This document shows, one piece after another, positions 35,246-48,558 of a stretch of 64,000 nt of DNA (positions are counted from its first letter, which is position 1; every line of letters starts with the position of its first letter). Source of the stretch: Candidatus Aminicenantota bacterium (GTDB taxonomy: Bacteria > Acidobacteriota > Aminicenantia > Aminicenantales > Aminicenantaceae); the NCBI GenBank assembly GCA_016927475.1, contig JAFGMO010000086.1:1-64000 (forward strand), in the 5' to 3' direction. The position numbers and the translations under genes were made by a program. The notes below the pieces were generated by a model that was not told the DNA's origin, made no database searches, and saw nothing but the letters and a program-made list of their open reading frames with translations.

Positions 35246-35392
35246 TCAGGGGCTGAACACGTCGCTCCGTTCGTTCTTGATGACGCAGTACAGCTTCACG
35301 GGATGCTTTTCCCATCTGGGGCCACCAACCGGGTTTAATCTATCGGTTTTCGAATAAGGCTGGTTAATGATAGAAACGCTGAAGAAGAGGAT
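35246..35392 (-). other. Unidentified coding-like remnant
   Basis: One frame is open from just after TGATGA (35393-35398) to TGA at 35246-35248 and reads like a protein end (RWEKHPVKLYCVIKNERSD near its C-terminus), with no start codon. Its upstream part overlaps the alanine racemase gene end in another frame. I do not recognise the family. The remaining gap 34774-35245 is AT-rich and holds the promoter above but no supported gene. Confidence 0.25.
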
Positions 35393-36563
35393 TCATCAGG
35401 ATGGGCACCTTGTAGACCGAACTCTCTCCCCACTTCGCAACTTCATCAAGAGTGATTTTTTGTCCGTTCTGTTCGCCGAAAAGAACCACCTCATCCCCGA
35501 TACCGATATCAGGATATCCGCTGATATCCGCGTAGGAATGGTTGGCAGACATGTCGGCGATAAGGGAAAAACGTTTGCCGCGGATGAGAACTTCCGCCTT
35601 GTTCACCGCCTGGAAGGGGTAGCCGTCCGAATAACCCAGGGGCAGCGTGGCCAGAAGCATGTCTTTATGGATCTTGTAACGCCCATGGTAGGAAAGAGTC
35701 TGCCCGGGAGACATTTTTTTTATGAGAATGACACGGGTTTTAAAGGACATAACCGGCCTGAGATCCATGTTTGCCAGGGGCTCCAGACCGTAAAGGGCGT
35801 TGCCCGGTCTCACCATGTCCAGGAAGGAACCGGGATAATTGGCTAAGGGAAGGCTGCTGGCTGCGTGCCGGAGACCCGTTGACACCCCCATTTTTTTGGC
35901 TACTGCGGCGATGCGGCACAGCCGTTCGACCTGAATCCGGTCAAAGTCCGTTTCTTCGGTCAGAGTGGTGAAGATGCCCTCGATAGTGATTCCGGGCAGG
36001 GCGGCCGTTTTTTCGATATAATCCAAAGCCTTTTCATGCGGAACTCCCACCCGCCCCAATCCGGTGTCCACTTTGATATGGATCCGGGCCTTTTTGTTCA
36101 GGCTGCGGGATGCGTCCGAGAGATATCTCACGCTGCCGGTGAATACGGATTGGGAGATGCCGAGGTTCACCAGAGTTTCCGCTTCCGTTTCGCTGTAGGG
36201 ACCGAAATTGAGAATTTCTCCTTTGATCCCGTTTTCCCGAAGGGCGGCCGCTTCATGGACCTTAACCACGGCGAAGCGGCCGATGCCGTTTCCCGCCATG
36301 TGTTGAGCGGTTTCCACCAAACCGTGGCCGTAAGCGTTGCACTTGACAACAGCCATAATAGGCCGCCCTTCCACGCGCTTTCGCACCTGCGCAATATTCC
36401 AGGTAAGGTTGGCCGTATCGATCTCCAGCCATGGGTCGAAGGTTTTCACCGTCTTTTTTTGCGGAGCGGGGGATCCCGGTTCTTTTCCCAAATGCCGTGA
36501 TCCCCAAGCCATGGGTGCTGTGCCCATCATAAATACAAAATCTCGCCGTTTTATTTTTTTCAT
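35364..36563 (-). CDS. alr: Alanine racemase with Tat-type signal
   Basis: A 399-aa fold-type III PLP racemase. The PLP Lys is in VVKCNAYGHG near residue 74; other blocks are IKVDTGLGRVG, RHAASS, VRPGNALYG and LPLGYSDGYP. The catalytic-Tyr loop region is GESSVYKVPILM. Residues 1-30 (KKIKRRDFVFMMGTAPMAWG) resemble a twin-arginine signal: paired Arg, a short hydrophobic stretch and small residues. The enzyme may therefore be exported and could be a periplasmic racemase rather than the cytosolic cell-wall enzyme. It appears monocistronic. Confidence 0.9.
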   Translation of the reverse strand: MKKIKRRDFVFMMGTAPMAWGSRHLGKEPGSPAPQKKTVKTFDPWLEIDTANLTWNIAQVRKRVEGRPIMAVVKCNAYGHGLVETAQHMAGNGIGRFAVVKVHEAAALRENGIKGEILNFGPYSETEAETLVNLGISQSVFTGSVRYLSDASRSLNKKARIHIKVDTGLGRVGVPHEKALDYIEKTAALPGITIEGIFTTLTEETDFDRIQVERLCRIAAVAKKMGVSTGLRHAASSLPLANYPGSFLDMVRPGNALYGLEPLANMDLRPVMSFKTRVILIKKMSPGQTLSYHGRYKIHKDMLLATLPLGYSDGYPFQAVNKAEVLIRGKRFSLIADMSANHSYADISGYPDIGIGDEVVLFGEQNGQKITLDEVAKWGESSVYKVPILMNPLLQRFYH

Positions 36564-38242: not shown

Positions 38243-38271
38243 TTGACCTAACGCTTCGAGTATATTAATAT
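38243..38271 (+). promoter_or_regulatory. Sigma70-like promoter for the peptide/maturase unit
   Basis: TTGACC (38243-38248, five of six), 17-base spacer, TAATAT (38266-38271, four of six). It would start transcription near 38278, about 50 bases before the 112-aa peptide gene, so that gene and the radical SAM gene form their own unit. Confidence 0.5.
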
Positions 38272-38327
38272 TTATTCACTTTTGTTGGATTTTTTTCAAA
38301 AGCACAGGAGGAAAAAGGAGGGATTTT

Positions 38328-38666
38328 ATGGCCGATTACAAAAAACCCATCGATGAGATCATCCAAATCAATCCGCCCAAGGACGGGCCTGACCTGAAGA
38401 TACCCGGACTTCATCCGCTGTTTTGGATGGGTCTTCAGTTCATAAAAAAGGTCCCCATCAATAAATTTCCGAATCTAGAAGATCGGGAAAAATGGGAAGG
38501 TTTCCAGAAGTGCGCGACAGAGGCGCAGGAGCTGGGGATCGATCTGCTTCAGGCGATTGTAAAGCCCATACCGGATGTTGACAGACCGAGAATCCCGTGC
38601 TTGAACCAGCCGATCGATGAGATCATCGATCCCCCCGGTCCTATTGTAGATCCTATAAAAAAATAA
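38328..38666 (+). CDS. Candidate RiPP precursor with repeated PIDEII motif
   Basis: A 112-aa protein of no family I recognise, with a very strong ribosome site (GGAGG repeated at 38307-38322). The segment KKPIDEIIQINPPK near the N-terminus is echoed at the C-terminus as NQPIDEIIDPPGPIVDPIKK; the DNA repeats too (38346-38365 and 38610-38629). Between lie a hydrophobic stretch (LHPLFWMGLQFIKKV) and a helical region with Cys (KCATEA). There is no signal peptide. Directly downstream is a radical SAM/SPASM gene, so a ribosomally made, post-translationally modified peptide is the best reading, with the Pro/Asp/Ile-rich tail as possible core. That role is inference. Confidence 0.65.
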   Translation: MADYKKPIDEIIQINPPKDGPDLKIPGLHPLFWMGLQFIKKVPINKFPNLEDREKWEGFQKCATEAQELGIDLLQAIVKPIPDVDRPRIPCLNQPIDEIIDPPGPIVDPIKK

Positions 38667-38676
38667 AAAAAAGCAC

Positions 38677-38697
38677 GAAATCCGCCGGCGGGATTTC
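38677..38697 (+). promoter_or_regulatory. Intercistronic hairpin
   Basis: GAAATCC and GGATTTC pair around a GCCGGCG loop, 11 bases after the peptide stop. No T-run follows, so it could partly attenuate or stabilise the mRNA, which is common between an abundant precursor gene and its enzyme gene. Confidence 0.45.
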
Positions 38698-38735
38698 TGC
38701 CGCAACGTTTTAACCATTGTAAATGAGTGTTTGGA

Positions 38736-39812
38736 ATGGAGGTCGATCTCTCCGGCTTTACTATCATTCTGACTACGGACTGTAATTTTCACTGCACCTA
38801 TTGCTACCAGCCGCGTTCCAAGCTTTACCTGAATCAGGATGCGGCTTTAAAAGCGGTCGGTTTTTTCTTTCCCTTTTTTAGCGACGGTTGCTTTGTCAGT
38901 TTTTACGGAGGGGAACCCCTGCTGGCTTTTGACACCATACGCAAGGTAACGGCCCATGTAGAAAGTTTGAGCAGGAAGACCGGAAAAAACGTTCGATTTT
39001 CCATCACCACCAACGGTAGCCTCATTACGGAAGAAATAATCGACTATCTGGATGCCCATCGGTTTTATGTGATGCTCAGCTTCGACGGTCCGGCTCAGGA
39101 TGAGGGCCGCCAAAAAGGAAGCGGTAAAAACCTTGTTAGTGTATTGGACCGAATGCTTGAGCGTTCCGGTATCGAGACGGCGACAAGCAGTGTTTTTACA
39201 CCGGAAACGGCGGAATATCTGGTGCCGGCGGCCCGCTTTTTTATGGAAAGGGGAGTTCCCCGGATCGATCTTACCTATTCTTCGCTTTCCGTCTGGGAGG
39301 AAAAGGACCTCGTTCGTCTTGAAAAATCCCTGGCCTCCTTACGGCCCCATGTGTTGGCCCGCTACCGGACAACGGGAGAGATTCCCGTCAGCCATTTTGC
39401 CAGGGGGGAAGGCTCCAAGGTCTTCAGCTGTTCAGCGGGTTTGCATCAACTAGCGCTTTCTCCGGAAGGAGATCTCTGGGGCTGCTGCTATTTTTACGAC
39501 CTGGCCCGCAGGGAAAGCGATTCTCTCTCGAAAAGCTCCTACTCATTCGGCAGCCTGGATTCTTTTATAGCCAATCCCGAAAAAACCTATCGCAAAACCA
39601 CCCCGGAATACACCCATCTCGATATGGAACATTTTTTCACGCGGGAAGGTCCCTGTATGATGTGTCCTGATATCGGGGGATGTGCCGTCTGTCCGGCTTA
39701 TGCGGCCTTTAAGAGCTCGATTCTGGGCATGATTCCCTTTCATACCTGCCGCATTCGGAAAATCCTTTGCGCACAGGTAAGAAAGTTCTGGGAAGAGGCA
39801 AGAGGGATTTAA
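38736..39812 (+). CDS. Radical SAM/SPASM peptide maturase
   Basis: About 358 aa. The radical SAM Cys motif CNFHCTYC is near residue 18, followed by FYGGEPLLAFDTI and SITTNGSLIT. The SPASM end carries CSAGLHQLALSPEGDLWGCC, then CMMCPDIGGCAVC and CRIRKILC, enough ligands for two auxiliary clusters, as in anaerobic sulfatase-maturase-like peptide enzymes. It has no RRE domain, so recognition of the substrate may be intrinsic. ATG 38736 is chosen; GTG 38727 is in frame. It follows the PIDEII peptide gene by about 70 bases in the same direction. Confidence 0.88.
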   Translation: MEVDLSGFTIILTTDCNFHCTYCYQPRSKLYLNQDAALKAVGFFFPFFSDGCFVSFYGGEPLLAFDTIRKVTAHVESLSRKTGKNVRFSITTNGSLITEEIIDYLDAHRFYVMLSFDGPAQDEGRQKGSGKNLVSVLDRMLERSGIETATSSVFTPETAEYLVPAARFFMERGVPRIDLTYSSLSVWEEKDLVRLEKSLASLRPHVLARYRTTGEIPVSHFARGEGSKVFSCSAGLHQLALSPEGDLWGCCYFYDLARRESDSLSKSSYSFGSLDSFIANPEKTYRKTTPEYTHLDMEHFFTREGPCMMCPDIGGCAVCPAYAAFKSSILGMIPFHTCRIRKILCAQVRKFWEEARGI

Positions 39813-40066: not shown

Positions 40067-40390
40067 ATGAATTACCTGACGCGAAAAGAGGAAATGATCC
40101 TGTTAACCATCCTCAAGCTGAGAGGGCAGGCCGGACTCGTCCAAATTCGGAAAGAGCTTATCGCCTTGACCGGAGAAGAATGGACGGTGGGAAACGTCTA
40201 TGTTCCCCTGGACAGGATGAGCAAACACGGCTACCTGAGTGTTTATATCGGGAAGCCGACCTCCCGCCGCGGAGGCAAGGCCGTCAAATACTACAGGCTG
40301 ACCTCTGAAGCGAAAAAGGCTCTGGCTGAGTGTAAAAAAATCCACGAAACGGTCTGGACCGGTATTCGGGATACCGCCTTGGAGGAATAG
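40067..40390 (+). CDS. PadR-family transcriptional regulator
   Basis: A 107-aa winged-helix protein: LTRKEEMILLTILKLRGQAG, the recognition part EEWTVGNVYVPLDRMSKHGYL and the wing RGGKAVKYYRLTSEAKKAL. GGAAAAATTTC precedes ATG. It lies 12 bases upstream of a MacB/FtsX permease, an arrangement very common in Acidobacteria-like genomes, where PadR is presumed to repress the permease operon. Confidence 0.92.
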   Translation: MNYLTRKEEMILLTILKLRGQAGLVQIRKELIALTGEEWTVGNVYVPLDRMSKHGYLSVYIGKPTSRRGGKAVKYYRLTSEAKKALAECKKIHETVWTGIRDTALEE

Positions 40391-40402
40391 GAAGGGGGAT
40401 TC

Positions 40403-43024
40403 ATGTCCGGGAATTTTCGCCATCCTCCGAAACTCGCCAACTGGGTGGTAGAACATTTTTTGCCGGCGTCGGAACGTCCCTTCCTTAACGGAGATTTTGA
40501 CGAGATTTACAATGATATCTTCGATGAAAAGGGACATGGGGCGGCTTTTCGGTGGTATTGGGCTCAAATTGCCCGTTCTCTTCCCCAAATTTTTTTCCAA
40601 TATTTATCATGGAGTGTGATCATGTTTAAAAATTATCTCAAAACGACATTACGTAATCTTCAAAGGCATAAGGGATATTCCCTTCTGAACATCGCCGGCC
40701 TTGCGGTCGGGATGGCCTGTTTTGTGCTGATTCTTCTTTATGTCCGGTATGAATTCAGTTATGAAGAGAATAATCACCAAGCCTCACATGTCTACCATAT
40801 TTATGTCGAACACACCAAGACGGATGAGATTTACAGGGTTCGATCCACGCCCGTCCCTCTGGTTGAAGCTCTCCATGATGAAGTTCCGGGAATCGAAAGC
40901 TATACCCGGATTGATTCATTTCCCAAAACCCTGGTCAGCGCCGAAAACAAGAAGTTTTATGAAACGGGAATGGTCTGTGTCGATCCCGGTGTTTTTGACG
41001 TTTTTGGATTCCGGCTCCTTTTAGGAGATAAAAAAACGGCCCTGGAAAAAGTCAATACGGCGGTGGTGACGGAACAGATTGCTGAAAAATATTTCGGAAA
41101 GGAAAATCCCGTCGGAAAAAACCTCGTACTGGGTTCTTCACTGCCGATTATGGTCACGGGCGTCATCATAAATCACCCTCCCAACACGGACATTGATCCC
41201 GACATCCTGGTTTCCTTCAAAACGGCTGAAGAGCTGAGCGGCGAGGATTACACGAACAACTGGTTGAGCCAGGTCCTCCAGTCTTACATCCTTGTTCCCG
41301 GCGAAGACTCCATCGAAAACCTGGAAGACAAAATTGAGGCCTGTTTCAGCAAATACAGGGCCAAAGAAGGAGACGATAGAATATTGAGAGTCGAGCGTCT
41401 CAGCCGAATCCATCTCTTTTCCGTTTTTGGAGAGGGGAACTTTAGGACCATTCAAATATTCCTGGGAGTGGGTTTTCTTATTCTATTGACCGCCTGTATC
41501 AACTTTATGAACCTGGCAACGGCCCGTTCGGCCGGCCGGGCCAGGGAAGTCGGCATGAGGAAGGTGGTCGGGGCCCGAAGAAAGCAGCTTATCACCCAGT
41601 TTTTAGGGGAAAGTTTCATTTCCGCCGTCCTGTCCCTTGTTTTGGCTTTGATGCTTGTCGCCGCCTTGATTCCCGCTGTAAAGAACATCACCGGGCAGGC
41701 CATTCGATTCGATCAAATAGGACAACCGGCCATAATGCTCGGTCTTTTGGGCGCCCTTATACTGACGGGCCTTCTGTCCGGCAGCTACCCGGCCCTTTTT
41801 CTCTCCGCCTTTCAGCCGGCTCCCGTGCTTAGAGGGATGGTAAAGAGCGGGAAAAAAGGAGCCGGATTTCGAAAAATCCTGGTCGTTTCCCAGTTCTGCA
41901 TTTCCATAATCCTGATCATATCCACCTTTATATTTACCCGGCAGATACATTTTATGAGAAACAAATCCCTCGGTTTTACCAGGGATCAGATCGTGGTCGT
42001 GCAAAATCAGGGAAGAACTCTGCGAAACGTTGAACCTTTAAAACAGGCGCTGAAGGAAAATCCCAATATTTTAAGCGTGACGAGTTCTATGATGCTGCCT
42101 CACAGGATTTCGATGTACAACGATGTTACCTGGGAAGGGGCGCCTGCTGACGAAAACATCGCCATTCAGCATAACACGGTCGACTATGATTTTCTTGAAA
42201 CTTTTCAGATTCCCCTTATCGCGGGCCGGAATTTTTCCCCGGACATCCCTTCCGATAAAAGGGGTGCCACCCGCGATCCGAAAAACGCCGGAAATATTAT
42301 CCTCAATGAAGAAGCGGTCAAAAGGTTCGGCTGGGAAAATCCCATCGGGAGAAAAGTGATTCAGGTTTTCGGGGAGCTGCGGATAACCTACACGGTCATC
42401 GGCGTTGTCAGGGATTTTCATTATTCCAGCCTTAAAAATCCTATCGGTCCCTTAAAGATATTTCTCAACAACCGAAGTCCGCTTGGTTACATCTCGGTCA
42501 GAATAAAACCTCAAAATGTTCAGGAAACGCTGGCTTTTATGGAAAAAGAGTGGCAACAAATCAATACCGGCTATCCGTTCGAGCACTATTTTTATGATTC
42601 TGTTTTTGAGCGGCAGTACCAGAGCGAAAAGAGCCTTCAAACCCTTTTCGGGTATTTCAGTTTTCTTGCCGTGTTCATTGCCTGCCTCGGGCTGTTCGGC
42701 CTAGCCTCCTTCGCCGCTGAGAGGCGGACCAAAGAAGTCGGTATCAGGAAGGTGTTCGGTGCTTCCAGCCGTGAAGTTGTTTTCCTTCTCACCAAAGATT
42801 TTTCCAAATGGGTACTTCTGGCAAATATTATCGCCTGGCCCGTTGCCTTTTATGCCATGAGCCGCTGGCTCGGCGGTTTTGCTTACCATATCGATATTTT
42901 AAGGAACTGGCACGTGTTTTTTGTATCAGGGGTTCTGGCCCTGGTCATTGCCTGGATTACGGTCGGTTATCAAGCCGCCAAAGCAGCAGTTAATAATCCT
43001 GTCAACTCGCTCAGGAATGAATGA
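40403..43024 (+). CDS. ABC transporter permease with N-terminal prefix domain (MacB/FtsX type)
   Basis: An 873-aa protein. Residues 1-75 form the permease prefix domain seen in PadR-linked permeases (LANWVVEHFLPASERPFLNGDFDE). Then two FtsX units follow, each with a MacB periplasmic domain: first helix near 90 (SLLNIAGLAVGMACFVLILLY), three helices at about 350-475 (INFMNLATARSAGRAREVGMRKVVGA), a second pair opening near 495, and a final set near 755-865 (FAAERRTKEVGIRKVFGAS). No ATPase gene adjoins, which fits the orphan duplicated permeases. Substrate unknown; such proteins export peptides or lipoproteins or act as mechanotransmission machines. Confidence 0.9.
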   Translation: MSGNFRHPPKLANWVVEHFLPASERPFLNGDFDEIYNDIFDEKGHGAAFRWYWAQIARSLPQIFFQYLSWSVIMFKNYLKTTLRNLQRHKGYSLLNIAGLAVGMACFVLILLYVRYEFSYEENNHQASHVYHIYVEHTKTDEIYRVRSTPVPLVEALHDEVPGIESYTRIDSFPKTLVSAENKKFYETGMVCVDPGVFDVFGFRLLLGDKKTALEKVNTAVVTEQIAEKYFGKENPVGKNLVLGSSLPIMVTGVIINHPPNTDIDPDILVSFKTAEELSGEDYTNNWLSQVLQSYILVPGEDSIENLEDKIEACFSKYRAKEGDDRILRVERLSRIHLFSVFGEGNFRTIQIFLGVGFLILLTACINFMNLATARSAGRAREVGMRKVVGARRKQLITQFLGESFISAVLSLVLALMLVAALIPAVKNITGQAIRFDQIGQPAIMLGLLGALILTGLLSGSYPALFLSAFQPAPVLRGMVKSGKKGAGFRKILVVSQFCISIILIISTFIFTRQIHFMRNKSLGFTRDQIVVVQNQGRTLRNVEPLKQALKENPNILSVTSSMMLPHRISMYNDVTWEGAPADENIAIQHNTVDYDFLETFQIPLIAGRNFSPDIPSDKRGATRDPKNAGNIILNEEAVKRFGWENPIGRKVIQVFGELRITYTVIGVVRDFHYSSLKNPIGPLKIFLNNRSPLGYISVRIKPQNVQETLAFMEKEWQQINTGYPFEHYFYDSVFERQYQSEKSLQTLFGYFSFLAVFIACLGLFGLASFAAERRTKEVGIRKVFGASSREVVFLLTKDFSKWVLLANIIAWPVAFYAMSRWLGGFAYHIDILRNWHVFFVSGVLALVIAWITVGYQAAKAAVNNPVNSLRNE

Positions 43025-43065: not shown

Positions 43066-46000
43066 TTAACGCCCCAGCTTTTCCATGGCGGCGATAATTT
43101 CCGGTGGAATATCAGATCCGGCAGCATTCCAGGTTTTGAGCAGTGCTTCAAAATGGTCGGCCGCCTTGCTTTTATTCCCCTTGTCCCACTGTATTTGTCC
43201 CAGCCGGTAAAAAGCCTGCCCCAGCTTGTCTCCGAAGCGAAGCTTGCCGGTGGTAAGTTTGGTGATTTTCTCGTATTTCGTTGCGGCCTTCTCAACCATG
43301 CCGTTTTCAAGATAAGCCGAGGCCAAAGAATCCAAATAAAGGATATGCCGGTCGGCCTTTGTGTGCTCACTGTCCAAGAGAGAGCAGGCTTTCTCAAAAT
43401 ATTCGATGGCCTCTTTCGGCCTGTCTTCGGACCTGGCTATCTCTCCCATCAGGTGGTGATAATGGCGCATCTGTTTGGGTATTTCGTTTTTTTCGACCTC
43501 TTGCTCGATCCTTTGGGCTGCATGACGTGCGTCCTCTATCCTTCCCATTCTAACGTAGACCAAGCCCCTTAGGTGATGGGAAAATATCGTATAGTCCGAA
43601 ACACCGCATTCCATGGCCCTCTCGACGGTCCGGCCGGCGCTTTCCAGCGCTTGTTCCAGCTTGTTTTCCTGAAGCAGTTGGTAAGTTCGCATCATATTGA
43701 AATTATATAATCCCGGTTTGAATCCGTATTTTTGCGAGAAAGTGAGCCCCTGCTCGATGGTCTTAAGCATTTCCGTTGTATTTTTTTGGGTCAGGTAGAG
43801 ATAAAACTGCCAGTGCAGACCCATGTACCTCATCAAAAAATCTTTGCCTTCAGCCATTTTTTGATACACCTTCTCCGCGGCCGGGTAGTCGTCCATCGCC
43901 TGGAAGGAATTCCCCATGAGTTCAAGAATGGTTCGGTCGTTCGGGGCCGCTTCATGAGCGTTCTCGAGCTCTTTCCGTGTTTCTTCGAAACGCCTTTGGC
44001 AGAGATAGGCCATGGCCAACTGAATATAGTAGAATGTAGGTTCAACGAATATGTCTTTTTTTGAAAGCAAAAGGTTTCTTGCCTTTTCATATTCTCCCAG
44101 GGCCATATGACAGTAAGCGATATTGGCGATGGCCAAGCCCTGATTGGGATCGACAGCGATGATCTTTTCAAACTGTTCCCGGGCTTTTTCCCATTCTTCG
44201 ACGCCCCGGTACCAGGAGCCGAGCAGGCCGAGGGTTTCCAGATCGTCGGGATAAATCTCCAGGAGTTTTGTGTAAGCCGCAATGGTCTCCTTGACCGTCA
44301 CTGCAACGAGTCCCTGAATAAGGTAATAATCCCTTTCTGAAACCCTGTTGAGAAAGGATTGGGCTTTGGCCAGCCATTTATCCTGCTCGTCATATTTACC
44401 CAGGTATGCGCAGTTTATGGACATCATCCTGTAGGCGTTGGCGAACTCCTGGTCCAGATTAACGGCCTCTTCCAGTTCCGTGTTGCTCTCCTGATATTTT
44501 CCCTGGTTGTGAAATATTTTTGCTGTGACGAAATGCCTTAAAGCTTCTGGGGAACTGGTTGTGATCTCCATGACATCCTGGTCGATATCCTGGTAGATCT
44601 CATCCTGGCTGAGGTTGAAGTCCTCTTTGATCTCGCGCGTCAAGGTGTCGACAATGAGGAAAATGCCGTTTCCTCCCGTACCCGCGGCTGTTTCTTTTCC
44701 CGTTATCTCCATGTTTTTTATGTCGTGAAGAAAGGTGTTCACCTGAAGGGAATCGCTGCTTCCACTGAAATTTCCGGAAAGGATGTAATCGGCATGACAG
44801 GCTTGGGCGATTTTTTTGAGCTCATTGGTGGAATATGTTTCCGCTTCCAAAAGATTAAAGTCCCGAAGGACGGTATAGATTTTGTCCGTACTCATGACAC
44901 GGATATACCGTGACTGAAGAAGGTCGGAGATGAGAAGATCCGGCAGGGACCTTTTGAGATAATCGAGATTCGGATCCCCGGTGTTATTCGCCAGATACAC
45001 CACGGCAAGAGCCTTTCGAATGCCCTTGGAGACAAGGGACGAAGGGCCTCTGTTTGTCAAATAGATTAAGATTGCGGCCGCAATCAAAAGAAAAAAAAGA
45101 AGTCCGGCGAATGCAGGACGGCGGAGCAGCCGGGTGAAACGGGCCGTCTTGGAGAGAGGTTTATGTTTCTCCAGTACTTCCAGGATTTCAGCCGTGCTTT
45201 GAAAACGTTTGGCCGGGTCCTTTTCCAGACAGCGGCGAATGATGTTTTCCAGAAAGGGGGGGATTTGAGGAAATAGTTTGGACGGAGCCGCCGCTGTTTC
45301 TTGGATGTGCTTGTCCATCACCTCCCGGCTCGATTTTCCCTCGAAAACCGTTCGTCCCGTTACCATCTCGTAGATGACGGTTCCCAGAGAATAGATGTCC
45401 GTCCGGGGGTCGAGTTTTTTCCCCTCCGCCTGTTCCGGGGACATGTACATCGGTGTTCCCGACCTTTTTTTGTCTTGTTCCGATTCAGTGGTGTATATGG
45501 CCCGGGCCAGCCCGAAATCCATGACATAAACATGGCCGCTGTTGTCGACCATGATGTTCGAGGGTTTGAAGTCCGTGTGAATGATTCCTTTTTTATGGGC
45601 GGCATCCAGCGCTTGGCACATCTGCCGGGTCATTTCGATTGTTTTCGCAGCGCTCAATCTGCCTGCTGATCGAATGACTTCATCAAGGCTGTGGCCCTTG
45701 ATGAATTCCATGGAAAGATATTTGATATCATCCGATTCGCCGAGGTCATGAATACGGATTACATTTTCGTGGGAAATGGACCGTGCAGTCAGGGTTTCTT
45801 TCTTAAATCTGTCAATGAAGGCCGGATGGGCCGCATAACGGGGATGGATGAATTTCAGGGCAACGGTGATATTGAGCTTCGTGTCTTCGGCTTTGTAAAC
45901 CCAGCCCATGCCTCCACGGCCTATCTCCTCGATGATGCGGTAGCGGTCGTCGAAGATCTCTCCGGCGCTGAACCGGTATTTTTGATAGGAGGCTTCGCTT

Positions 46001-46131
46001 TTTTCAGGTCCGGAAGTGAGAGTTGCTTCAGCGTCATCAAGAGACGAGCCGCATTTACTGCAGAAAAAAGAGCCCTTCTCATTCAGAGTAAAACACTGTT
46101 TGCATTGAAGAAATTCCTGCTTACTCCCCAC
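43066..46131 (-). CDS. Zinc-ribbon Ser/Thr protein kinase with TPR repeats
   Basis: A 1021-aa membrane kinase starting at GTG 46131. A zinc ribbon (CKQC...CSKC, residues 10-27) precedes the kinase domain at about 62-330: Gly-loop IGRGGMGWVYKAE, Lys in VALKFIH, catalytic loop IIHTDFKPSNIMV, VMDFGLAR and the activation-end GTPMYMSPEQAEG. The loop has HTD where HRD is usual. One helix at about 345-365 (GLLFFLLIAAAILIYL) leads to an external region with at least ten TPR-like helical repeats (VDLDQEFANAYRM; AVDPNQGLAIANIAYCHMAL). Probably a protein-interaction-driven sensor. Confidence 0.92.
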   Translation of the reverse strand: MGSKQEFLQCKQCFTLNEKGSFFCSKCGSSLDDAEATLTSGPEKSEASYQKYRFSAGEIFDDRYRIIEEIGRGGMGWVYKAEDTKLNITVALKFIHPRYAAHPAFIDRFKKETLTARSISHENVIRIHDLGESDDIKYLSMEFIKGHSLDEVIRSAGRLSAAKTIEMTRQMCQALDAAHKKGIIHTDFKPSNIMVDNSGHVYVMDFGLARAIYTTESEQDKKRSGTPMYMSPEQAEGKKLDPRTDIYSLGTVIYEMVTGRTVFEGKSSREVMDKHIQETAAAPSKLFPQIPPFLENIIRRCLEKDPAKRFQSTAEILEVLEKHKPLSKTARFTRLLRRPAFAGLLFFLLIAAAILIYLTNRGPSSLVSKGIRKALAVVYLANNTGDPNLDYLKRSLPDLLISDLLQSRYIRVMSTDKIYTVLRDFNLLEAETYSTNELKKIAQACHADYILSGNFSGSSDSLQVNTFLHDIKNMEITGKETAAGTGGNGIFLIVDTLTREIKEDFNLSQDEIYQDIDQDVMEITTSSPEALRHFVTAKIFHNQGKYQESNTELEEAVNLDQEFANAYRMMSINCAYLGKYDEQDKWLAKAQSFLNRVSERDYYLIQGLVAVTVKETIAAYTKLLEIYPDDLETLGLLGSWYRGVEEWEKAREQFEKIIAVDPNQGLAIANIAYCHMALGEYEKARNLLLSKKDIFVEPTFYYIQLAMAYLCQRRFEETRKELENAHEAAPNDRTILELMGNSFQAMDDYPAAEKVYQKMAEGKDFLMRYMGLHWQFYLYLTQKNTTEMLKTIEQGLTFSQKYGFKPGLYNFNMMRTYQLLQENKLEQALESAGRTVERAMECGVSDYTIFSHHLRGLVYVRMGRIEDARHAAQRIEQEVEKNEIPKQMRHYHHLMGEIARSEDRPKEAIEYFEKACSLLDSEHTKADRHILYLDSLASAYLENGMVEKAATKYEKITKLTTGKLRFGDKLGQAFYRLGQIQWDKGNKSKAADHFEALLKTWNAAGSDIPPEIIAAMEKLGR

Positions 46132-47349: not shown

Positions 47350-48558
47350 GTGAAGTGCCCTAAATGTCAGCAGAACAATCCTGATAATTTATGTTTTTGT
47401 GCGAACTGCGGGGAACAATTGGATATAGATCCCACCATTATTCAAAAAACTATTGAAAAAAAGATGGCCAAGCGTATGGTGATCGCCGGAAGGTATGAAG
47501 TGCTTGAACGGCTGGGAAGCGGCAGAATGGGTACGGTCTACCGGGTGCTGGACAAAAAATTCGATGAAGAGGTTGCCCTGAAACTCCTTCGCCCCGAGGT
47601 GGCTGGTGATGAAGACATGATCGAACGTCTTCGAAATGAACTAAAAACCGCCCGAAAGATAATCCATCCCAACGTCACACGTATGTATGAATTTGGAGAG
47701 GAGCAAGGAAGGTTTACCATCACCATGGAATATGTTCCCGGCGAAGATCTAAAAAGCTATATTCGACGGTCGAGGATTCTTCCCATACAAAAAGCCGTAG
47801 ATATCGCCTGCCAGATTTGCCGGGGGCTGATAGAAGCCCACCGTCTTAGAATAACTCACAATGATATTAAACCCCGGAACATCATGATCGATAATGAAGG
47901 AAATGCCAAGATTTTGGATTTTGGGATAGCCCCCTCGATCGGAAACAAGAAAGGTTTTGTGGATAAAGGAGGGGTTATCGGAACACCGGAATACCTATCT
48001 CCTGAACAGATTGAGGGAAAAGAGGCCGATCAAAGGTCGAATATATACTCCCTGGGTGCTGTTCTCTTCGAGATGGTTACGGGAAAGCCGCCTTTTGAGG
48101 GGGACACGGCTCTCAGCCCGGCCATAAAACAGAAACAATCGCCTCTTCAGAACCCAAGGGATTTGAACCGGGAAGTTCCTGAAGGGCTCAGCCGGTTGAT
48201 CTTAAAATGTTTGGAAAAAAGCAGAGATAAGAGGTATGCTTCGGTCAAAGAATTTTTGGCCGAACTGCAACCTTATTCCGGGTTCAAGATGCCGGCTGAG
48301 ATCCTTCTCAAATTAAAAGATGTTGGACGAAAAGCCCCTACGCGTCCTTTCCGTCTAAAGACGATTATTGTTATTATTATTTTTGGAGCTCTTTTTATAG
48401 CAGCCGCCTATTTTTTTGTCAGCCTAAAGTTGAAGACTCAAAGATTAAATCCCGCTGTTAAAACAGGGATCGGGCAGGCATCGATAGCCAGTTCAAAAGG
48501 CGATCTGACAGAGAATAAGCTCTATCAGCCGTTCGAAGGACAAAGTCAACGGCGTTAA
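47350..48558 (+). CDS. Zinc-ribbon Ser/Thr protein kinase, membrane-anchored
   Basis: A 402-aa kinase from GTG 47350. Zinc ribbon CPKC...CANC (residues 3-20); kinase domain about 46-310 with GSGRMGTVYRV, Lys in VALKLLR, catalytic loop ITHNDIKPRNIMI, LDFGIAP and GTPEYLSPEQIEG. The HRD Arg is Asn (HND). A helix at about 337-357 (TIIVIIIFGALFIAAAYFFV) anchors it, with only about 45 residues outside. Related to the 1021-aa kinase in domain layout but lacking TPRs. It may share a transcript with the ABM-like gene. Confidence 0.92.
   Translation: MKCPKCQQNNPDNLCFCANCGEQLDIDPTIIQKTIEKKMAKRMVIAGRYEVLERLGSGRMGTVYRVLDKKFDEEVALKLLRPEVAGDEDMIERLRNELKTARKIIHPNVTRMYEFGEEQGRFTITMEYVPGEDLKSYIRRSRILPIQKAVDIACQICRGLIEAHRLRITHNDIKPRNIMIDNEGNAKILDFGIAPSIGNKKGFVDKGGVIGTPEYLSPEQIEGKEADQRSNIYSLGAVLFEMVTGKPPFEGDTALSPAIKQKQSPLQNPRDLNREVPEGLSRLILKCLEKSRDKRYASVKEFLAELQPYSGFKMPAEILLKLKDVGRKAPTRPFRLKTIIVIIIFGALFIAAAYFFVSLKLKTQRLNPAVKTGIGQASIASSKGDLTENKLYQPFEGQSQRR

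Follow-up and report, generated by a model that had tools for sequence, protein, structure and literature searches.

The 64,000-nucleotide stretch of DNA analyzed here (the window) encodes a 112-aa peptide followed by a radical SAM/SPASM enzyme. Comparison with related loci leads us to propose that it carries one copy of a three-part Aminicenantes cassette, in which a precursor peptide and a radical SAM/SPASM enzyme would be joined by a single-span membrane receptor. That the first two parts are a precursor-plus-maturase pair is highly likely for the family, and somewhat less so for this exact window peptide. With modest confidence, we also favor a model in which the modified peptide is a ligand or bound regulator of the co-encoded receptor and the cassette serves peptide signaling. 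The features on which these proposals rest are listed in Table 1.

Table 1. Features of the window and of related loci (L numbers carry their own coordinates)
Feature	Position	Strand	Basis or remark
Putative sigma-70-type promoter TTGACC-17-TAATAT	38243..38271	+	Consensus 9/12; weak
Precursor peptide gene, 112 aa	38328..38666	+	Strong Shine-Dalgarno; ORF listing
Leader, residues 1-78	38328..38561	+	Predicted helices 30-39 and 50-68 (low-confidence model)
PIDEII DNA repeat, copy 1, in leader	38346..38363	+	18 nt, 94% identity to copy 2
Putative core KPIPDVDRPRIPCLNQPIDEIIDPPGPIVDPIKK	38562..38663	+	Alignment A3 and Cys-position statistics
Cys91 codon, predicted modification site	38598..38600	+	A3, Cys statistics; analogy to CteB, PapB
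PIDEII DNA repeat, copy 2, in core	38610..38627	+	18 nt, 94% identity to copy 1
Radical SAM/SPASM maturase	38736..39812	+	Pfam, homologue alignment, AlphaFold, PDB fold match
Zinc-ribbon Ser/Thr kinase-TM-TPR receptor, 1021 aa	43066..46131	-	Pfam Pkinase and TPR
Predicted TM helix of receptor kinase, residues 340-358	45058..45114	-	Kyte-Doolittle mean 2.74, 19 residues
Receptor and precursor without adjacent rSAM	L246 2484-4505; L247 2141-4160		G005 and G029
Reg_prop/Y_Y_Y receptors	L058 764-3559; L059 313-4518 and 7199-11257; L060 1668-4454		Adjoin precursor-rSAM pair

A first-pass annotation had described a peptide ORF of no recognized family with a strong ribosome site, followed by a SPASM radical SAM gene, and all of these are present where it placed them. 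The 112-aa ORF is preceded by the ribosome site AGGAGGAAAAAGGAGGG, matched no family in Pfam or NCBIfam, and found only itself in a BLAST search of 60 relatives. The peptide reads PIDEII at residues 7-12 and again at 95-100 and, as also reported, the DNA of the motif is repeated too. Of the control signals claimed for the gene, the promoter does match the sigma-70 consensus, but since the region contains 3 promoter-like sites versus 1.2 in shuffled sequences, we rate it as plausible only. The hairpin described between the two genes (38673-38700) did not hold up, as its folding was within chance (z -0.6 versus shuffles) and it has no T-run on the plus strand; it was dropped as a candidate terminator or attenuator.

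The radical SAM ORF extends from a GTG at 38727 to 39812, with an alternative ATG at 38736. The ATG is the more likely start, since relatives begin M-E-[LF]-S. The protein scored 50.5 bits against Pfam Radical_SAM (cut-off 29.5). Its CxxxCxxC motif (C19, C23, C26) and SPASM-type cysteines (C235, C253, C310, C313, C319, C322, C341) were invariant in 12 homologues, ten residues in all; the spacing of the final SPASM Cys pair is x2, versus the usual x3. An AlphaFold model (mean pLDDT 91.6) had its best PDB match in CteB (5why, E 3.5e-21), which was also the best PDB sequence match. The maturase begins directly with its radical SAM core, which leaves no space for a recognition domain at the N-terminus.

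Sequence comparison places the maturase in an unnamed family of Aminicenantes and some other Acidobacteriota. Homologues at 32-44% identity are present in many relatives, and those with names belong to Candidatus Aminicenantes and unclassified Acidobacteriota. A search of genome contigs with the single maturase sequence gave no matches and an alignment-based search was needed. With that alignment (A1), family members turned up in 23 of the 94 genomes searched for the order, covering 17 of 35 genera, and in 26 of the 396 searched for the phylum, with the last six more remote. A search of viral contigs returned generic radical SAM enzymes alone, at no more than 35% identity.

We examined 48 loci, 42 of which form the core family. 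In two of these 42, the contig ends before the peptide position. At 38 of the 40 usable loci, a peptide gene of 63-130 aa with a Shine-Dalgarno site adjoins the enzyme gene, where the precursor ORFs were chosen by ribosome site and position and some choices may be wrong. Unlike the peptide genes, the enzyme genes of the family mostly lack a Shine-Dalgarno site, as expected if the substrate must exceed the enzyme. The peptide is encoded on the same strand as the enzyme except at four loci (L061, L174, L175, and L179), where it is divergent and lies between receptor and enzyme. Homologues without an adjacent peptide, which the first-pass annotation had said would count against the pairing, were confined to two usable loci. 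One is L055, whose genome has a second enzyme copy, L059, with a peptide. The other, L032 (G010:C36), is the closest homologue of the window enzyme (44% identity) and has neither a precursor nor a TPR receptor next to it. By eye, the neighbors of L032 are an acetyltransferase-like protein and a membrane-fusion/FtsX-like pair.

Most peptides of the family show purifying selection, with dN/dS of 0.11-0.49 in 10 of the 11 pairs for which the ratio was computable; the nearest pair, G056/G052, had a dN/dS of 1.41 at a dS of only 0.05. In roughly half of the 12 related pairs compared, the core evolves faster than the leader; in the others the rates are equal or reversed. The window peptide itself has no close relative. 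In two pairs, core identity was 7-14% and leader identity 70-74%. Of 45 precursors, 43 have their last Cys at a distance of 5-25 residues from the C-terminus, compared with a mean of 18.3 and a maximum of 29 in 2000 shuffling trials. Around this Cys, 33 representative cores gave the consensus C-P-G-x-[RK]-P-[I/R]-[I/V], in which 18 of the cores have Pro at +5 and 20 have I or V at +7; the commonest +4 residues in family cores are R, I, and K. Two precursors repeat the core: that of L054 (about 346-709) contains GCEGGKPVIK in six near-identical tandem cores with short spacers, and that of G053 has two core copies ending RISPMP. No NCBIfam or Pfam family covered the precursors tested.

Alignment A3, which includes the window peptide, has C91 and P95 as its sole invariant residues apart from M1. 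The window peptide has two cysteines in total, one of them in the core, and its tail (...RPRIP-C-LNQ-PIDEII...) agrees with the family consensus, with Pro at +4. Since the tail fits the consensus around the C-terminal Cys, the 'PI' of PIDEII is, as aligned, the element common to family cores. As a word, PIDEII occurs in this genome only, and its N-terminal copy is peculiar to the window peptide. The expectation that a PIDEII peptide would always precede the enzyme therefore fails; what family cores have in common is a C-terminal Cys with P-[I/R/V]-[I/V] after it.

Homology between the window leader and the leaders of relatives is tentative. A local similarity between FIKKVPINKFPNLEDREKWE in the window leader and FINTVPINPELPDCKDWE in the G061 precursor was equaled in 4 of 1000 shuffles, uncorrected and as one among 42 comparisons. 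Profiles of the relatives' precursors, built with the window peptide left out, did not recover it above shuffles, and a match of the A3 profile was discounted, as the window peptide is itself part of A3. In a low-confidence model, the predicted helices of the window leader resemble the two-helix leaders of relatives; the single-sequence fold had a pLDDT of 49 and is not taken as strong evidence. Nevertheless, because relatives of the enzyme nearly always adjoin such a peptide, family peptides mostly show purifying selection, and the core evolves faster in about half of the pairs, the window peptide is very probably the substrate of its own enzyme, with the tail as core. This much of the first-pass proposal is supported by the 38 of 40 loci; PIDEII as its hallmark is limited to one genome. 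Cys91 is the predicted modification site, by analogy with the thioether-forming relatives CteB and PapB.

A profile of the precursors found with HTH-TPR proteins (A2) gave 15 strong matches in the order, 12 of them next to the enzyme. At the G023 match, the contig stops at the first codons of the enzyme. In G005 and G029, a precursor and an HTH-TPR protein occur without an adjacent rSAM gene, and a family rSAM is encoded elsewhere in both genomes. Therefore, the peptide stays with the receptor even where the enzyme is not adjacent, an arrangement that suggests modification in trans in these two genomes. The genome of the window has a second cassette, L051 4767-7900 (G000:C103:123766-126890), which consists of an HTH-TM-TPR protein, a 64-aa precursor ending PCPPSTEIIMGGG, and an rSAM enzyme.

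The third part of the cassette, a co-conserved membrane receptor, was missed in the first-pass annotation and alters the likely function. A kinase-TPR or HTH-TPR protein is encoded at 34 of the 42 core-family loci. At L058, L059, and L060, single-TM Reg_prop/Y_Y_Y receptors take the place of the TPR receptors; their outputs are SpoIIE, a hybrid histidine kinase-AraC, or AraC. Five of the six remote loci encode, upstream, a single-TM protein that matches the kinase domain. In the TPR receptors checked, the TM helix lies between output and sensor. The sensor halves of the two TPR receptor types align by profile (99.7%, E 1.2e-26), although TPR repeats align easily. In the three genomes tested (G000, G012, and G041), the sole full-length HTH-TPR protein adjoins the rSAM gene.

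The window kinase is convergent, as in relatives, yet lies 3.2 kb from the rSAM gene, with a PadR regulator and a MacB/FtsX permease (40067-43024) in between. This segment is apparently an insertion relative to related loci. In a tree, the window kinase is sister to the rSAM-adjacent G061 kinase (support 99/95, 42% identity), whereas five paralogues from its own genome form a separate clade (100/100). Because the tree groups it with an rSAM-linked kinase and not with its paralogues, we take the kinase at 43066-46131 as the cassette partner. The window kinase has 29 matches in its own genome; the 28 other kinase loci have no family rSAM within flanks of about 1.5 kb and no convincing precursor. 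The gene at 47350-48558, beside that for the receptor kinase, encodes another zinc-ribbon Ser/Thr kinase, one that lacks a TPR domain.

Other neighbors were considered and set aside. PadR and the FtsX permease were dropped as cassette members, as they were not seen in that place beside relatives, and we do not claim the upstream S41 protease as a leader protease, as it was not seen next to relatives. Genes for an exporter, a protease, a recognition domain, or immunity are not conserved in the cassette across loci. Elsewhere in the window, 35364-36563 encodes an alanine racemase whose N-terminal KRRDF motif resembles a twin-arginine export signal.

We also observed that eight HTH-TPR type rSAM genes from at least five genera (L043, L044, L046, L047, L048, L050, L168, and L169) have a -1 shift at a run of T8 or T9 at about codon 45. 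The run lies just before the L-P...FYGGEP segment, at one identical place in all eight, and is retained even in the GC-rich G044 copy. Unshifted homologues almost all have T6 or fewer there, the exception being L058, with T8 in frame. The pattern resembles programmed slippage, either in transcription or on the ribosome, although assembly error is formally possible; a comparison case has been described (PMC5009743). The window rSAM gene needs no frameshift.

In the model that we favor, the precursor would comprise a helical leader and a short C-terminal core with one key Cys. The leader would bind the enzyme, which would modify the core at Cys91, most likely through a thioether to a nearby downstream residue. 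CteB and PapB, the nearest structures and families of the enzyme, form thioethers and by analogy count for this chemistry; the enzyme could instead form carbon-carbon links, epimerize, or decarboxylate. The leader would then be removed and the product exported from the cytoplasm, and the mature peptide would act on the receptor's TPR domain, which lies outside the membrane, with the signal passing to the kinase inside. A signal/receptor function for the cassette is put forward tentatively, and the receptors could serve to control production instead of sensing the product. Slightly more tentative still is a broader reading, in which rSAM-modified peptides are ligands of single-span receptors whose outputs are exchangeable (Ser/Thr kinase, helix-turn-helix, SpoIIE phosphatase, and histidine kinase/AraC) and slippage sets enzyme output in some lineages.

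Several alternatives bear on these proposals. The pair might make a secreted RiPP, antimicrobial or other, with the receptor sensing only stress or product to control production or immunity. The layout of precursor and rSAM/SPASM enzyme is the one usual for sactipeptide and ranthipeptide clusters, the family cores vary, and the window has an FtsX-type permease downstream. However, a dedicated exporter or immunity gene is not conserved, the minimal HTH-TPR operon contains receptor, precursor, and enzyme only, and the PadR-FtsX pair was not seen in that place beside the relatives examined. We consider this alternative unlikely.

It is less probable again that the peptide becomes a redox cofactor, by a logic like that of PQQ or mycofactocin, or stays inside the cell as a structural or regulatory subunit of the receptor, even though each receptor has a single copy, no exporter was seen, and the HTH-TPR type seems to have receptor and precursor on one transcript. 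In cofactor precursors the core residues are retained, whereas here, in two pairs, the cores had diverged far more than the leaders; this variability disfavors a PQQ-like cofactor. We give equally little weight to the idea that the window peptide is a chance neighbor, unrelated to the family precursors, and that the enzyme acts on another substrate. Its failure to match the relatives' profiles, its unusual length of 112 aa, N-terminal PIDEII, and Pro-rich tail, and the lack of a peptide beside the closest homologue (G010) all fit this idea. Set against them are features that match relatives, namely its position, its strong ribosome site, a middle part that is helical, and P-I after the C-terminal Cys, and its local match to the precursor of G061, whose kinase is the sister of the window kinase.

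Literature searches, with subscription journals and preprints largely uncovered, found nothing on Aminicenantes RiPPs or on the pairing of an rSAM enzyme and peptide with a receptor kinase. Among known rSAM/SPASM families, the best-scoring was that of the PapB ranthipeptides (NF047865), in which PapB thioether-links Cys-containing precursors (PMC9413430). Scores against this family were 121.8 bits for the window enzyme, 130.1 for the G010 homologue, and 159.9 for the second copy in the same genome, all below the curated cut-off of 340 bits. The PapB cross-link motif is CX3D/E (PMC9413430), whereas the window core reads C-L-N-Q-P-I-D and the +4 residue of the family is mostly R, I, or K. Also unlike PapB, the window enzyme has no spare N-terminal domain for a recognition element and comes with a receptor gene. 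With the SCIFF maturase CteB (PDB 5wgg, 5why), the window enzyme has the SPASM auxiliary-cluster cysteines in common. Their identity is 19-20%, and the match starts at CteB residue 97, as the window enzyme starts at the radical SAM core. Its score against SCIFF TIGR03974 was 74.5 bits (cut-off 425), and the SCIFF substrate has six Cys, while family substrates have one core Cys or repeated cores.

A small peptide gene beside a TPR-containing regulator, as in most relatives, recalls the RRNPP quorum-sensing pairs, in which the TPR domain is bound by the mature peptide. RRNPP receptors are cytosolic TPR proteins of 250-500 aa encoded next to a propeptide that is exported by Sec or PptAB (PMC10075063). 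The window receptor, in contrast, has 1021 aa and a TM helix and lies 3.2 kb away; family receptors in general have about 600-1400 aa, span the membrane, carry exchangeable outputs, and accompany a precursor with its own rSAM enzyme. In the Rgg-linked RaS-RiPPs of streptococci, an rSAM enzyme is likewise present alongside peptide and regulator. The receptors of L059 and L060 resemble the Reg_prop/Y_Y_Y hybrid two-component receptors, with a single-span sensor and an AraC or histidine-kinase output. Such receptors are known mainly as polysaccharide sensors; those of L059 and L060 differ in adjoining a precursor-rSAM pair.

By the features tested, we class the cassette as a probable rSAM/SPASM RiPP system outside PapB, SCIFF, and RRNPP, and no described family matches it. 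Because the maturase family comes with a precursor signature of its own, searches can find further members. Acidobacteriota have many orphan Ser/Thr kinase-TPR receptors, most of them with unknown signals; if the signaling reading is true, it offers a ligand-receptor pair that can be tested for these and ties radical SAM peptide chemistry to membrane signaling rather than to antibiotics. If proven, it would represent a class of peptide communication new to biology, in a lineage that is uncultivated.
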